Assembly (NCBI GenBank): GCA_016215705.1
Contig: JACRIR010000208.1
Coordinates: 1 to 9,600 of the forward strand
DNA length: 9,600 nucleotides
Direction of reading: 5' to 3'
Source of the DNA: Candidatus Poribacteria bacterium
Lineage (GTDB): Bacteria > Abyssobacteria > SURF-5
A program made the position numbers and the translations under genes. Position 1 is the first letter of the stretch; the number at the start of each line of letters is the position of its first letter. The notes under the pieces were generated by a model that worked only from the letters and a program-made list of their open reading frames with translations, did no database searches and had not been told where the DNA came from. Shown here one piece after another: positions 2,947 through 9,600 of this stretch.

Positions 2947-5616
2947 CTGATATCCGCGCTCATAAATCACAAAGGAGCCACCTGTCTCGCTCCGGGAATC
3001 TTTTTTGTTTTTCTTCTGCTCTGTCTTCACTGCATTTTCGACTATTCTCCGACCTATGATGAAACGAAGTTTCTCCGCGTCGGAGAGAGTCTCGCCTCGG
3101 GAGACGGATGGCGGACCGAGATGAGCGTCGTTCACGCGCCGTTGTCCTTTTATACACATGGACTGATCCTGAAGCCGTTCAAGTTTTCGAATGACACGGC
3201 AAAGCTCCGCTGGGCGCGAGCAACCATGCTCGTATACACGCTCGCGCTGGCCGGAGTCGTATATGTCTGGGCGAAAAAGCTCTTTGGCGCATGGGGCGGT
3301 CTCACAGCGCTCGCAATGTACTGCTTCAACTCCAATATCATCGCGCACTCGTCACTCCTGACAACTGACGTTATCTACGCTTTCTTCAGTCTCAGTCTGC
3401 TTTACTCTTATTGGCGATATACGATGCAGTACCGGACGAGATGGCTAGTGGCTTCAGGCATAAGCCTTGGGCTCGCACTGCTGTCCAAATACCCGGCCGT
3501 CCTCTGGTTCTTCCTTCTGCCCGTCATTGCCGGAACATTACTCATAACTGAGGCAAGAAGCGGCGAAACCGACGACAAGTCCTTGCTTCGGCGGGTTATT
3601 GGAACCGTCGGCGCTGTGGCCGCAATTTTTCTTCTGGCGATTCTTGTAATAAACATCGGCTACGGATTCTCGGGGACGTTCAGTCGCCTGGGCTCAAATC
3701 ATTATCAGAGCCATTCTCTTGCCATGCTATCTGAAAATCCGTTGACCTCCCGGATTCCGATTCCCTTGCCATATCCTTTCTTGATAGGATACGACGTGCA
3801 GAAGACCATTTCAGAAGTCGGACATCCCACTTTTCTTGCGGGTATGCGTTCGACGAGAGGCTGGTGGTACTACTATCTCGCATGCTTTTTCCTGAAAATG
3901 CCGGCTGCTTTCTGGCCCATACTGATATGGGCTTGTGTCGGCATATTCTCTCCTAATAAACCTGCATCCGTTTCCCTTAATCGGGGACACCATGCTGCAT
4001 GGTGTCCCCGATTAAGGCTGTTTCTTCCACAATCAACCACGCCGCCGGCATGGTCGGCTGCCCAGAGGGCCAAGAATCAGCGCAACGCGAAAGTTATGTT
4101 AATTCTTTCATTTGCTGCGCTCACAACCGCAAGCAGTTTCTTGAGCAGAAGTCAGGCTGGTTTTCGGTACGTCCTTATGACTCTGCCTCCTCTATTCATT
4201 CTCTCAGGCTCAGTGGCCCAAAACGTCGGCAATGGGCTCAGGAGGTTTGCGCTTGCGGCGCTGCTTTGCCTATATATGGCGTCTGCGCTCATGGTTCATC
4301 CGCACCATATTGCTTATTTCAGCGCGTTTGTCGGCGGCCCGGAAAACGGGTACAAATGGCTGTCGGACTCGAACCTTGACTGGGGCCAGGACCTCGAGCG
4401 CGCCCGCGATTACGTTCGCAAATCGAATGTCCCAATAACCGTAAACCCCGGCATCATGCCGGTCAGCGACCGGATTCTCATCAATGCTACGACGCTTCAG
4501 GACACTTTTGTGACATACGATATCCATGGTTGGCTCCGAGGGTTCAAACCTATTGACTACATCGGCTATTCCTGGCTGGTCTTCGACATCACCGAGGAGA
4601 CTCTCAAAGACAGAGTGCTTGTTCCGGATGCTCTGCCCGAGAACTACTATCGAGGCGCGTTCGAGTATGAGCGCGACCATCTCCGGGAGGCTTCGAGGCT
4701 GGCCGCGTCGCTTCTGACCGAAAGCCCTGCGTTGCCGGAGGCTCTATATCTCGGGGGGCTCTGCGAAATGGGCCTCGGGAAACTTGACGAAGCGGAGGAA
4801 ATATTCGGCAAAATTCCTATGTCACATGCGCTTTACGTGGAAGCGCGAAATAATATGTCGTTCCTTGCAGCGGTGCGCGGGAACAGTGAAGCGAGCAAGA
4901 CCTACAGAAAGCAGTCGATGCTCGAAGATACTCTCAGGGCTTATGCCCGACGGCCCGCGCTGATCACGGACGAGTCGCCGGACGCGTCTGCCTTGACGTC
5001 CGCCGGCTGGAGATTACTCAACAATATCGGCGTGTCGGAGTGGTCGCGAGGAATGCCACGCGAGGCCGAGAAAAGCATCCGGTCGGCTCTCGCCATTCAG
5101 CCGAACTTTGTTGAGGCATATGCTAACCTTGCAGTCGTGCTCGAGGATCAGGGGCGTTTCGATGAAGCTCTTCGTGCGCTCGATGAATACGAAGCCAATA
5201 TGCTGCTTTTGAGAACGACTCCGTACAGGGATTACCGCGTGTATTATCAGGATACACGGGTGATGATGGGCGATACTCTGGAGTTGTTTCCGAAACCCGA
5301 TCCACAGGTGTTGAGGCTTGAATCCCATTTAGCCCGCTTTCCTGCGGATGTTCCCGCGATGAACCAGTTTGCAGTCGCGCTCATGAAGCAGGGCCGCTTC
5401 GGGGAGGCATTTGAGACGTTGAGACGGGGACTTGCCGATTACCCGCGCTCCAGCGCTCTCCACACAACGCTGGCCGTGCTATATACGGAAAAGAGGATGT
5501 TTTCACAAGCTCTCTCAGCGTGCGAGCAGGCAGTTCGGATTGATCCCGGGAATGCGTCGGCTGCGGAACTGCTTTTGTCCATTCAGAAGAAGTTGGCGGA
5601 GTCGGTTTCCTCTTGA
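2947..5616 (+). CDS. ArnT/PMT-like GT-C membrane glycosyltransferase with C-terminal TPR repeats
   Basis: The N-terminal half resembles the PMT_2/ArnT group, which moves sugars from polyprenyl-phosphate donors on the outer face of the inner membrane. From 2947, helix 1 is at about 17-31, then the PTYDE motif (D38-E39, the expected catalytic acidic pair), LSKYPA near 179, GWWYYYLACFFLKMPAAFWP near 305-323, QAGFRYVLMTLPP, and WLSDSNLDWGQDL near 471-483. TPR-like repeats fill about 570-889. The start is unusual: the first in-frame ATG (3121) lies after helix 1 and the DE motif and would remove them. The frame is open back to a TAA at 2944-2946 with no ATG, GTG or TTG before 3121. CTG at 2947, 8 nt after GAAAGGGA, is used here as a best guess; a sequencing error is the alternative. 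A repeat palindrome is read through at residues ~344-357, in a loop between membrane helices. First of three GT-C/TPR genes in a row. Confidence 0.75.
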   Translation: MISALINHKGATCLAPGIFFVFLLLCLHCIFDYSPTYDETKFLRVGESLASGDGWRTEMSVVHAPLSFYTHGLILKPFKFSNDTAKLRWARATMLVYTLALAGVVYVWAKKLFGAWGGLTALAMYCFNSNIIAHSSLLTTDVIYAFFSLSLLYSYWRYTMQYRTRWLVASGISLGLALLSKYPAVLWFFLLPVIAGTLLITEARSGETDDKSLLRRVIGTVGAVAAIFLLAILVINIGYGFSGTFSRLGSNHYQSHSLAMLSENPLTSRIPIPLPYPFLIGYDVQKTISEVGHPTFLAGMRSTRGWWYYYLACFFLKMPAAFWPILIWACVGIFSPNKPASVSLNRGHHAAWCPRLRLFLPQSTTPPAWSAAQRAKNQRNAKVMLILSFAALTTASSFLSRSQAGFRYVLMTLPPLFILSGSVAQNVGNGLRRFALAALLCLYMASALMVHPHHIAYFSAFVGGPENGYKWLSDSNLDWGQDLERARDYVRKSNVPITVNPGIMPVSDRILINATTLQDTFVTYDIHGWLRGFKPIDYIGYSWLVFDITEETLKDRVLVPDALPENYYRGAFEYERDHLREASRLAASLLTESPALPEALYLGGLCEMGLGKLDEAEEIFGKIPMSHALYVEARNNMSFLAAVRGNSEASKTYRKQSMLEDTLRAYARRPALITDESPDASALTSAGWRLLNNIGVSEWSRGMPREAEKSIRSALAIQPNFVEAYANLAVVLEDQGRFDEALRALDEYEANMLLLRTTPYRDYRVYYQDTRVMMGDTLELFPKPDPQVLRLESHLARFPADVPAMNQFAVALMKQGRFGEAFETLRRGLADYPRSSALHTTLAVLYTEKRMFSQALSACEQAVRIDPGNASAAELLLSIQKKLAESVSS
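3975..4017. repeat. Perfect 43-bp palindrome (REP-like) inside a coding region
   Basis: The left arm contains CTTAATCGGGGACACCATGC (3976-3995), extended by one C at 3975; the right arm (3997-4017) is its exact reverse complement; one T at 3996 separates them. A half copy sharing AATCGGGGACAC and ATGC lies at the right edge (9581-9600), so it looks like a dispersed family. It is translated in frame as about 14 residues of the glycosyltransferase (LNRGHHAAWCPRLR). No T-run follows it, so it is not an ordinary terminator. Palindromes of this kind are often moved by REP-associated tyrosine transposases, but none is present here, so the mechanism is inferred. Confidence 0.85.
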
Positions 5617-5647
5617 AAAACCGGATGCGACGGGGTGATGTTTTATC

Positions 5648-5669
5648 ATTCCCGCGAAGGCCGGAACCC
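5648..5669. repeat. ATTCCCGCGAA-type dispersed repeat, imperfect palindrome
   Basis: ATTCCCGCGAAGGCCGGAAC, followed by CC, lies between two genes. TTCCCG (5649-5654) and CCGGAA (5661-5666) pair with one mismatch. It resembles the widespread CATTCCCGCGAA-xGCGGGAA-CC intergenic repeats, whose translations give HSRE-GRNPA-type peptides, as this one does. This is why the upstream GTG/ATG codons (5635, 5638) are unlikely starts for the next gene. Recognition is from memory of the repeat class, not from a search. Confidence 0.5.
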
Positions 5670-5688
5670 AGCTTCTGAGAGGAACTCA

Positions 5689-7338
5689 GTGGAGAACAGC
5701 ATACACAGCAACACCTTGCGGCAATGCCCGAGGCGAATCCATGTATTGTTCCTGCTAATACTCGTGGCCGCAGCGTTGCTCGCATACTCGAACAACTTCA
5801 CGGCTGGTTTTGTCTATGACGATTATCCCTTCATACTGGAGAATCCGGCGGTACGGACGCTCTCAAACCCAGTCCGGTTCTTCACCAGCCGCGAAGCTTT
5901 TTCGGAGAAGGGACAGTATGTGATATACCGTCCGCTAGCCACCCTCAGTTTTGCGCTCAACTACAGGTTGAGCGGGTACAATCCGGCTTTGTTCCACACG
6001 GTTAACATCCTTCTCCACGTCGCCGCAAGCGCGACCCTGTATGCGCTTTTGTTCTTGACATTTGGCGAAGCGGTTTTTGCTTTTTTTGTGGCGCTTCTAT
6101 TTCTCCTCCATCCGGCGCAGACCGAGGCTGTCTCATGGATCGCCGGGCGCGGCAATCCGATGTTCCTCACGGTCTTCTTCCTTGCAATGATCTGCTATGA
6201 GAAATGGAAGAGAGAAAGTAGTCGGGCTTATTACGGACTGGCTCTGCTGTTTGCGGCATTATCGCTTCTGTCAAAGGAAATGGCGGTTGTCCTGCCGGTT
6301 TTGCTGGTCGTGGTCGAGTTGACTCTCCCTCGGCCGGACGCGCGCCCGGATCGCACGAAGCATCTCGTCGCGGTCATCCCGTTTGTCGCGCTCTCGATAG
6401 GCTACGTGGTACTGCGACATTTGGCCCTGGGCGAGACCAGGCAGATGGGATACTGGGGCGGCGGACTGTGGCCGACCCTCCTGACCATGACGAAGGGATT
6501 CGTGTACTACGTCCGCCTGCTGTTTGTCCCGATGCCGCTCATGGTCGAGTATGTCATTCCGATTGCGAGGTCGCCGCTGCAGCCGACGGTCCTCGTTTCT
6601 TTACTGGTGTTGGCGTTTCTTGTGCTCGCATGCGTTATGAGCTACAGACGGGCGCCGGTAGTGTGTTTTGGGATCGCATGGTTCTTTGCGTCGCTTCTGC
6701 CGGTGTCAAATGTGGTTCCTATGGAGGCAGTCATCAATGAGCGGTTTCTTTATTTGCCATCGATAGGGTTCTGCGCAATACTTGCGGCGCCACTGCTAGC
6801 GGCGAAGGCGGCTTCGAGAAAGAGGGCGGCCGTGGGCGTGATTATCGCGCTCGCTCTGATCGGTTCGTGTTACGGCGCTTTGACTTTCAACAGAAACCGG
6901 GATTGGCGCGACTCGCTTTCACTGTGGACCGCGTCGGTGAAGGCCTCGCCGGCCGGCCCGACGTCGCAATACAACCTTGGCCTGGAGCTTTTCAAGCGCG
7001 GCCGATATGACGAAGCTATCGAACATCTCAAGATCGCTTGTCGGCTCCAGGAGAGCTTCCCTTATGCGCATGCCGCACTCGGTAACGCCTATTTCGCAAA
7101 GGGAAGTTTTGAGGCCGCGATAGAGGAATACACAATCGGTGTGCGCCAATGGCCGACCGATAAGAATTTGAGGCATAACCTTGCAATGGCCTGGTTGGAG
7201 AAAGGTAAGATACATTCGTCTCAGGGCGAGACAGGGTTGGCCGCGCAATGCTTTCTGAATGCTCTCAAGTTCGAGCCGGGTCTTGAGCCTGCCATGCAGG
7301 CGCTCAGACAACTGAGCGGAGTTGACGAACGTGGATAA
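5689..7338 (+). CDS. TMTC/DUF1736-like GT-C membrane protein with C-terminal TPR repeats
   Basis: The 549-residue product has a polytopic membrane half (to about 400) and a TPR half (about 425-545). Family-like marks in order are: helix 1 at 18-33; FVYDDYPF with the acidic pair D44-D45; the block HPAQTEAVSWIAGRGNP at 141-157; LLSKEMAVVLP; PVSN followed by NERFLYLPSIG (350-360); and NRNRDW at 401-406. These are hallmarks of the TMTC/DUF1736 group. Eukaryotic TMTC1-4 have the same GT-C plus TPR layout and are linked to O-mannosylation of cadherins. The bacterial role is not established; transfer of a sugar from a lipid carrier on the outer face is the natural guess. GTG 5689 is chosen because GAGAGGA (5677-5683) lies 5 nt upstream; earlier in-frame starts run through a dispersed repeat. 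Its stop overlaps the next gene's start by 8 nt. Confidence 0.8.
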   Translation: MENSIHSNTLRQCPRRIHVLFLLILVAAALLAYSNNFTAGFVYDDYPFILENPAVRTLSNPVRFFTSREAFSEKGQYVIYRPLATLSFALNYRLSGYNPALFHTVNILLHVAASATLYALLFLTFGEAVFAFFVALLFLLHPAQTEAVSWIAGRGNPMFLTVFFLAMICYEKWKRESSRAYYGLALLFAALSLLSKEMAVVLPVLLVVVELTLPRPDARPDRTKHLVAVIPFVALSIGYVVLRHLALGETRQMGYWGGGLWPTLLTMTKGFVYYVRLLFVPMPLMVEYVIPIARSPLQPTVLVSLLVLAFLVLACVMSYRRAPVVCFGIAWFFASLLPVSNVVPMEAVINERFLYLPSIGFCAILAAPLLAAKAASRKRAAVGVIIALALIGSCYGALTFNRNRDWRDSLSLWTASVKASPAGPTSQYNLGLELFKRGRYDEAIEHLKIACRLQESFPYAHAALGNAYFAKGSFEAAIEEYTIGVRQWPTDKNLRHNLAMAWLEKGKIHSSQGETGLAAQCFLNALKFEPGLEPAMQALRQLSGVDERG

Positions 7339-9493
7339 CACCTCACCGGACAGAGAACGCCCCTCATGGGCGCCCAAACTTCTCAGGCGGTTCGCCGGCC
7401 TTGCGATTCTCCTCCTCGCGCTCTCGCTGTTTGCCAACAAGATTGCTGATACCGATATCTGGTGGCACCTGCGGACGGGTAGATACATCATCGAGAATCA
7501 TGTTATTCCCCGCGTCGACATGTACTCATATACGGCCGGTGGAAATAGATGGATTGACCTCCATTGGTTGTTCCAGGTCATCGTGTACGCAACCTTCAAC
7601 GCGCTCGGATCATACGGGCTGTCGCTCTTGTTCATCTCCGTTTTTGTTTTCTCTTTCCTGCTGCTCCGGTCCGCATGCCTGCCACAAAGAAACTACCTGG
7701 CGGCTATTATTCTGTTCGCCCTCGCTATCATGGCCGCCAGCGGGCGTTTCCTTGCCAGGCCCGAAGCTTTCACGTTTCTGATGATTGCGGCCTACATGGC
7801 GATACTATGCCGATACGAACGAGGAGGAGCTAATCGTCTTGTCTATCTCCTGATCCCACTTCAGATACTCTGGACGAACATGCAGGGGCTTTTCATCATC
7901 GGCCCATTCCTCATCTCTGCATATATTCTCGATCGCGGAATCAGGCGGTTTGTTTCCGGGCCGGAGTCTCGTGAGTCCGAGAAGCGCAGCAAAGGATTCC
8001 GGACTCTTCTTGTTGTGCTCATCGGGTCGCTCTTTGCGTGTCTCATCAATCCTTATGGTTTTAGTGGGTTGGCGTTTCCATTGACGCTTTTCACGCGCGT
8101 CGGCGGTATGCAGAACGTATTTGCCGCGTCGATTGCGGAGTTTCAGCCGCCATTCTCGGGTTACAATCTCACAGGCAGCATCAGATGGTTCGGAGTATTC
8201 ATGGTCATCTCAGCGCTCGCCGTGGCTGCGGATTATAGAAATATCAAAATAAGTCACGTTGTCATCTTCCTCGGGCTGGGATATCTTGCGCTGAACGCGA
8301 GGCGCAATATTCCGCTATTTGTGCTCGCGACTCTTCCCCTGTCGGTCGAGCATGCCGGCAATCTTGTCGTACGGTTAGGCGACTCCAAAGGCGGGAAATC
8401 GGCGCTATGGGTGAAGAGATTGGAATTGACAGGTTGCGCAGCGCTGATTCTACTTATTCCTTTTCAGATTTGTCGGGTAGTCAATGGCCGATACTATGTT
8501 TCCGACCGGCGAGCCGAGAGATTCGGGTTCGGCTTCAAGGAACAACTTTTCCCTCGCGGCGCATTCGTTTTCATCAAGGAGAATGGGATTCATGGTCCGC
8601 TTTTCAACAACATGGACATCGGTGGCATGTTCATATACGAGATGTATCCCATGGAGAAGGTCTTCATAGATGCGAGGCTTGAGGTGAACTCGGCTGAGCA
8701 TCTTGTTGAGTATCGCCGCGTGACGGCTGACCCCGTCGCCTTCAGGCGTCTCGCGTTGAAACATGGATTCAATGCCGCAGTTATAGCACACACGTCCCAG
8801 GACGCGCTCTACCTTATGCCCGTCCTGTATTTCTCGCCCGACTGGGCTCTTGTGTACCTTGATCCGATTGCTGCCGTCTTTGTGCGGACTGTTCCGGAAA
8901 ACGAAGTCATCATTCGTTCTGATAGAATAGACATTGGCCGGCGTCAAGTCCCGCTCATTGCGCCCGACGACACATTGAACGACAGCGGACCGATTTTCCT
9001 GCGAGCATTCCTCGATGCGATTACTCCTTCGGCGACGACGGACAGCGAGGCTCACAATTGGTTCAATCTCGGGCTCGTCTATCTGGTCATGGGTCAGAAT
9101 GCCCGCGCGGCAGAGCACATGAAGTCGGGGTTGAAGCTTATGCCCTTCTCATCGGAGGCTGAATATAACCTCGGACTCGCATATGATCGGATGGGAGAGA
9201 AGGGGATGGCCCTGCAACATTACGGAAAGGCCATCGTGCTGAACGCGCGCCATGCCCGCGCGCACGCGAACATTGGAAGGATATATGACGAGCGCGGCCT
9301 CAAGCGTGAGGCCGAACAGGAATACAATCTGGCGCTCAGATATGGAGGAGAAAACCCGATTGTGCTTTACAACCTGGGGGCGCTTTCATACGAGCGCGGC
9401 GAATATGAGACCGCACGCGAATGGTGGCAGCGCGCATTGAAGGAAGATTCCGCTTTCCAGCCTGCGATCGAAGCGCTGAAGAAGCTGAATTGA
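7331..9493 (+). CDS. Polytopic membrane protein with D-x-D-WWHL motif and four C-terminal TPRs (GT-C-like)
   Basis: The 720-residue product has helix 1 at about 20-35, then IADTDIWWHLRTGRYI (D40, D42) and IPRVDMYSYT, the first-loop pattern of a common bacterial membrane family distantly like GT-C transferases. About eight to ten helices follow to ~380. A soluble middle domain includes GPLFNNMDIGGMFIYEMYP and VFIDARLEV (420-452), usual in this family. Four complete 34-residue TPRs run 574-607, 608-641, 642-675 and 676-709. I chose GTG 7331, 9 nt after GGAG (7318-7321); a TTG at 7322 directly abuts that site. The start lies inside the previous gene, an 8-nt overlap suggesting translational coupling. 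A glycosyltransferase role is inferred from the motif, topology and neighbours; a flippase- or ligase-like role on the same carrier is possible. Confidence 0.75.
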   Translation: MDNTSPDRERPSWAPKLLRRFAGLAILLLALSLFANKIADTDIWWHLRTGRYIIENHVIPRVDMYSYTAGGNRWIDLHWLFQVIVYATFNALGSYGLSLLFISVFVFSFLLLRSACLPQRNYLAAIILFALAIMAASGRFLARPEAFTFLMIAAYMAILCRYERGGANRLVYLLIPLQILWTNMQGLFIIGPFLISAYILDRGIRRFVSGPESRESEKRSKGFRTLLVVLIGSLFACLINPYGFSGLAFPLTLFTRVGGMQNVFAASIAEFQPPFSGYNLTGSIRWFGVFMVISALAVAADYRNIKISHVVIFLGLGYLALNARRNIPLFVLATLPLSVEHAGNLVVRLGDSKGGKSALWVKRLELTGCAALILLIPFQICRVVNGRYYVSDRRAERFGFGFKEQLFPRGAFVFIKENGIHGPLFNNMDIGGMFIYEMYPMEKVFIDARLEVNSAEHLVEYRRVTADPVAFRRLALKHGFNAAVIAHTSQDALYLMPVLYFSPDWALVYLDPIAAVFVRTVPENEVIIRSDRIDIGRRQVPLIAPDDTLNDSGPIFLRAFLDAITPSATTDSEAHNWFNLGLVYLVMGQNARAAEHMKSGLKLMPFSSEAEYNLGLAYDRMGEKGMALQHYGKAIVLNARHARAHANIGRIYDERGLKREAEQEYNLALRYGGENPIVLYNLGALSYERGEYETAREWWQRALKEDSAFQPAIEALKKLN

Positions 9494-9563: not shown

Positions 9564-9600
9564 AAAATCGGGGAGTAGAAAATCGGGGACACGATGCCGC
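9564..9600. repeat. Second copy of the ATCGGGGACAC repeat, cut by the window edge
   Basis: AAAATCGGGGA occurs at 9564-9574 and again at 9579-9589, a 15-bp pitch. The second copy continues as AATCGGGGACACGATGCCGC to the window end, matching the left arm of the 3975-4017 palindrome except for one base (CATGC to GATGC). If it is the same kind of element, the reverse-complement arm should follow just outside the window. GTGTCCC at 9498-9504 can also pair with GGGACAC here. The 107 nt after the last gene hold no recognisable gene or T-run terminator. Confidence 0.6.

Follow-up and report, generated by a model that had tools for sequence, protein, structure and literature searches.

Palindromic repeats that are translated as part of host proteins have already been described in several bacteria. 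Repetitive extragenic palindromes (REPs) occur inside open reading frames of several species, where they mostly encode 20-30 residues that are absent from homologues (Di Nocera et al. 2013, PMC3733652), and the same work describes the terminal inverted repeats (TIRs) of IS200-like tyrosine transposases, which share a common GGGGWSAS motif and make up dispersed, often dimeric families. A third group, the Rickettsia palindromic elements (RPEs; Ogata et al. 2000, 2002, summarised in PMC10969869), are ~100-150 bp long and interrupt unrelated protein genes without shifting the frame, nearly half of them being intragenic with a conserved peptide.

Here we describe a clean new example from an uncultivated deep-subsurface lineage, a relative of Candidatus Abyssubacteria that is only distantly related to Rickettsia and to the remaining species with described intragenic palindromes, in which the mobile palindrome can be compared with clean empty sites. 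The window, that is, the whole stretch of DNA analysed, comprises 9,600 nt and is identical with contig C149. We read the locus, with a probability of roughly 0.9, as a gene for a membrane glycosyltransferase into which a dispersed REP-like element of ~111 bp inserted between two hydrophobic segments, keeping the frame and adding 37 residues. The features are as follows.

3121-5616, + strand: host gene, encoding a membrane glycosyltransferase of the PMT/GT39 type with TPR repeats at its C-terminus (open reading frame; Pfam PMT_2/PMT and TPR; frame open back to 2947)
3946-4056, + strand: element read as inserted, 111 bp or 37 codons, each end uncertain by a few bases (37 residues missing from both same-family orthologues; other copies align over ~3949-4057)
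3975-4017, no strand: perfect palindrome with GGGGACAC (inverted repeat, 100% complementary; fold energy)
4036-4054, + strand: degenerate second small hairpin (consensus of longer copies and its fold; one mismatch in this copy, none in the consensus of the family, ACCGCGCC-GCA-GGCGTGGT)
5635-7338, + strand: multi-pass membrane protein that has TPR repeats, co-transcription possible (open reading frame, Pfam)
7322-9493, + strand: membrane protein that has TPR repeats, co-transcription possible (open reading frame, Pfam)
9581-9600, no strand: half of another copy, of the GACACGATG subfamily, cut by the contig end (repeat search)

The palindrome consists of two 21-nt arms (3975-3995 and 3997-4017) separated by 1 nt, each containing GGGGACAC, and an inverted repeat of this kind is expected by chance ~2e-9 times per 9600 nt. 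The inverted-repeat search agreed with the initial annotation, which had described it as perfect around a single T, and a frame check likewise agreed that two of the + strand frames are closed by a TAA, at 3978 and at 4013, and that the gene uses the only open one. Folded as RNA, positions 3946-4068 formed a very stable hairpin with a minimum free energy of -50.9 kcal/mol (z -5.6), and Rfam gave no match across 3800-4200. Such a hairpin could possibly slow ribosomes on the mRNA; that it ends transcription ahead of the two downstream genes is less likely. An intrinsic terminator was considered and rejected, as the hairpin scored terminator-like but its T tract is broken and shuffled sequences averaged 0.4 such sites.

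The extent of the insert was estimated in two independent ways. A translated comparison with the orthologues of two genomes from the same family, G001 and G002, left a single 37-residue gap at 3946-4056 with both sides conserved, while other copies in the same genome matched the window well past the palindrome, and the two estimates of the ends differed by only a few bases. The insert begins ~29 bp upstream of the palindrome, and its exact ends and any target duplication are unreadable because the orthologues are 52-57% identical. Neither same-family genome has the repeat or the 37 residues, in keeping with the insertion proposed in the initial annotation. The extra stretch which that annotation had sought at residues ~335-380 is real and 37 residues long, but its extent had to be redrawn: the foreign part had been thought to reach perhaps to ~4075, as the peptide AKNQRNAK looked foreign, whereas in the orthologues this peptide has counterparts of like charge, such as REKDRKRRS, and is therefore native, placing the end of the insert near 4056.

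Within the protein, the insert parts a hydrophobic segment ending in ILIWACVGIF from one beginning with KVMLILSF, so that it does lie in the loop before the helix near VMLILSF, where it had been placed. Its charged residues are four K/R, with D/E absent, and a K/R-rich stretch lies next to it; under the positive-inside rule the loop that bears it is probably cytoplasmic. An AlphaFold2 model built from two sequences had a mean pLDDT of 43 and was unusable, and its rendering of residues 276-312 as coil carries no weight.

The palindrome proved to be the central part of a repeat that is scattered through the genome in well over 100 further copies. Neither of the outcomes that the initial annotation had named as refuting an insertion was thus observed, as the homologues lack the residues and other genomic copies exist. 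The exact core CGGGGACACCATGCNGCATGGTGTCCCCG occurred at 58 places genome-wide, and AATCGGGGACAC and GGGGACACCATG gave 188 and 234 strand-matches, respectively, against 0 for each reversed control. None of 385 other genomes, the two same-family genomes among them, contained a 33-bp form of the core, and among viral contigs there was one exact 16-mer match, which is not above chance. The second family copy reported at 9581-9600 is a genuine match (90% over 20 nt), but it belongs to a sister subfamily, with arms in ...GACACGATG rather than ...GACACCATG, and is truncated by the contig end at 9600; that the contig ends within a repeat copy is expected, because the assembler stops at repeats.

In the consensus of 30 longer copies, the palindrome is preceded by the left flank CTCCTAAGAAACCGGCGACTGTTTCCC and followed by a right flank containing the second hairpin. 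Several arm types occur (CCATG, CGATG and CCTTG), and the arms differ between copies yet match within each copy. Among the longer copies the flanks deviated from the consensus at ~28% of positions and the two arms of a copy mismatched at <3%, the latter rate being partly forced because the search pattern demanded an intact GGGGACA...TGTCCCC. Even so, the hairpin appears better preserved than the flanks, whether through selection, because perfect copies spread, or because one arm corrects the other. At the end of contig C90 (L101:2540-2638), a palindrome copy adjoins a perfect tandem array with 4.7 repeats of the 21-bp unit CGCCGGTTTCTTGGAGTCCCT, a unit that resembles one end of the longer repeat.

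To place the copies relative to genes, we predicted genes from codon usage in the 604.5 kb fetched around copies, a part of the genome in which 139 hairpin cores were placed. Four of the 139 cores lay within predicted genes and 135 outside, although ~74% of the sampled positions were coding; this count comes from a method that cannot recognise copies splitting genes out of frame, and it leaves out the long open frames across many other copies, which were mostly antisense or N-terminal extensions. The premise that REP-like elements avoid genes is thereby borne out, and the family shows REP-like behaviour with rare in-frame survivors. Among the 125 intergenic copies having both neighbours predicted, 24 lay between convergent genes, somewhat more commonly than gene gaps of at least 60 bp in the same stretches (34/293).

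Besides the glycosyltransferase gene, three genes carry copies in an open frame. A DUF58 gene (L131:1929-3437, contig C231, - strand) contains a repeat copy and two degenerate half-copies in frame and has 23 residues more than its G001 orthologue. A GH127-family gene (L201:1182-3158, C108) contains one whole and one half copy in frame, with 26 residues that are missing from both same-family orthologues. In a gamma-glutamyltranspeptidase-family gene (L179:487-2502, C57, - strand), the copy lies in frame a short way ahead of the part that aligns with the conserved DTTYF region, and the members used for comparison are considerably shorter there; these were distant family members only, with which an exact empty site is not demonstrable. 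The two intragenic copies of the CCATG type are read in different frames and encode different peptides, LNRGHHAAWCPRLR and NPGTPCRMVSPDLQ.

These properties place the element close to the intragenic REPs (PMC3733652), which are likewise dispersed palindromes, mostly intergenic as a family, that lie in frame in open reading frames and encode residues missing from shorter homologues. The repeat has many copies that are mainly extragenic, and it occurs in frame within an open reading frame of at least 120 aa without a counterpart in homologues. However, the described REPs are shorter and GTAG- or CGTC-tagged, whereas the present element adds 37 residues and neither the window copy nor the 30-copy consensus has a GTAG or CGTC tag at the stem foot; because it has no tag, it is not a GTAG/CGTC REP. 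It resembles the RPEs (PMC10969869) as a palindromic repeat in frame in unrelated genes, but only 4/139 cores are intragenic here and there is no conserved peptide, so it is not an RPE either.

In sequence, the element matches the TIR families of the TIRYT/TIRtron type (PMC3733652). GGGGACAC fits the GGGGWSAS motif and such families are often dimeric, and the palindrome is therefore read as two TIRs joined head to head, without a GTAG tag. Elements of the IS200/IS605 type move as single strands through a Y1 tyrosine transposase, and IS200-like tyrosine transposases are also present in the same genome, where contig C225 carries the gene for a REP-associated tyrosine transposase that scores above the NCBIfam cut-off and contig C28 encodes two Y1 transposases, the tested one of which fell below that cut-off and is bounded by inverted CGGGGACATAATACCTATTT. 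In a departure from the TIRYT/TIRtron families, many copies have their own longer flanks and no transposase gene flanked by the exact repeat of the palindrome was found in the assembly, which is 92% complete and breaks at repeats; the C28 and C225 transposases are flanked by related but different TIRs. Within the fetched stretches, a search for separated half-repeat pairs at transposase-sized distances (300-2500 bp) returned one pair only, which was unrelated. On this analogy, it is somewhat probable that the palindrome is mobilised by the RAYT-type or Y1 tyrosine transposases of this genome. The C225 transposase (L031:56-1030) is fused to a DnaA-like C-terminal helix-turn-helix domain and bounded by inverted GGGGTCAGGTCTTGAA... 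repeats.

Taking these observations together, we propose that the family is non-autonomous, consisting of TIRs joined head to head plus flanks in the IS200-like class (RAYT/TIRYT), and that it would be mobilised in trans by tyrosine transposases. One such element of ~111 bp most probably entered the glycosyltransferase gene between two hydrophobic segments. Since its length suits the codon phase and the palindrome can be read through in one frame, the downstream part stayed in frame, giving 37 extra residues in a presumably neutral loop. Copies that break genes would be removed by selection, and the rare in-frame copies would persist.

The insertion could instead have crippled the gene, leaving a young pseudogene whose frame is open only for lack of time. 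The very stable hairpin within the insert would fit such a history, as would the start of the gene: a conserved N-terminal segment (DYSPTYDE...), present in the G001 orthologue, is encoded in the same frame ahead of the first ATG (3121), and no ATG, GTG or TTG precedes it in 2947-3121. Since no canonical start lies upstream, the functionality of the gene is not assured; this feature is independent of the insert, and a CTG at 2947, behind AAAGGG, is a possible start, the other possibility being that the start was damaged or lost. Against decay, the 519 codons past the insert still form an open frame and are no less conserved than the preceding part (65.6% identity to G002 after the insert vs 56.3% before). 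In addition, the flanks of this copy already depart from the family consensus, so the insertion must have some age, and the gene has nevertheless acquired neither a stop nor a frameshift. We therefore regard a young pseudogene as unlikely.

It is very improbable that the repeat made the assembler join two unrelated pieces. The genome is in 270 contigs and C149 itself ends in a repeat copy, but the flanks together make up a single conserved gene without a change of frame, the orthologue alignment resumes at once, the DUF58 and GH127 genes show the same pattern, and ordinary read pairs can span a 111-bp repeat. An ancestral or ordinary variable loop merely resembling the repeat deserves almost no credence, for although the site is a variable inter-helix loop, its DNA belongs to the genome-wide repeat beyond the palindrome itself and the loops are short in both same-family orthologues, which already contradicts this reading.

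The in-frame insertion of a dispersed element, which we prefer, ties translated palindromes to a GGGGWSAS-type repeat family without the usual REP tags, and shows how repeats that are strongly depleted within genes may nevertheless lengthen a protein, given a suitable frame and loop position. It is improbable that the repeat in addition keeps supplying this lineage with new protein loops and that one or more of the four segments it encodes have gained a function; candidates would be, for example, the glycosyltransferase loop or the segment next to the DTTYF-aligned region of the gamma-glutamyltranspeptidase-family protein. In L066 (C128) and L083 (C229), one end of the longer repeat has the sequence TTAGGAG or TAGGAGG directly before an ATG and thus looks like a ribosome-binding site provided for the gene that follows.
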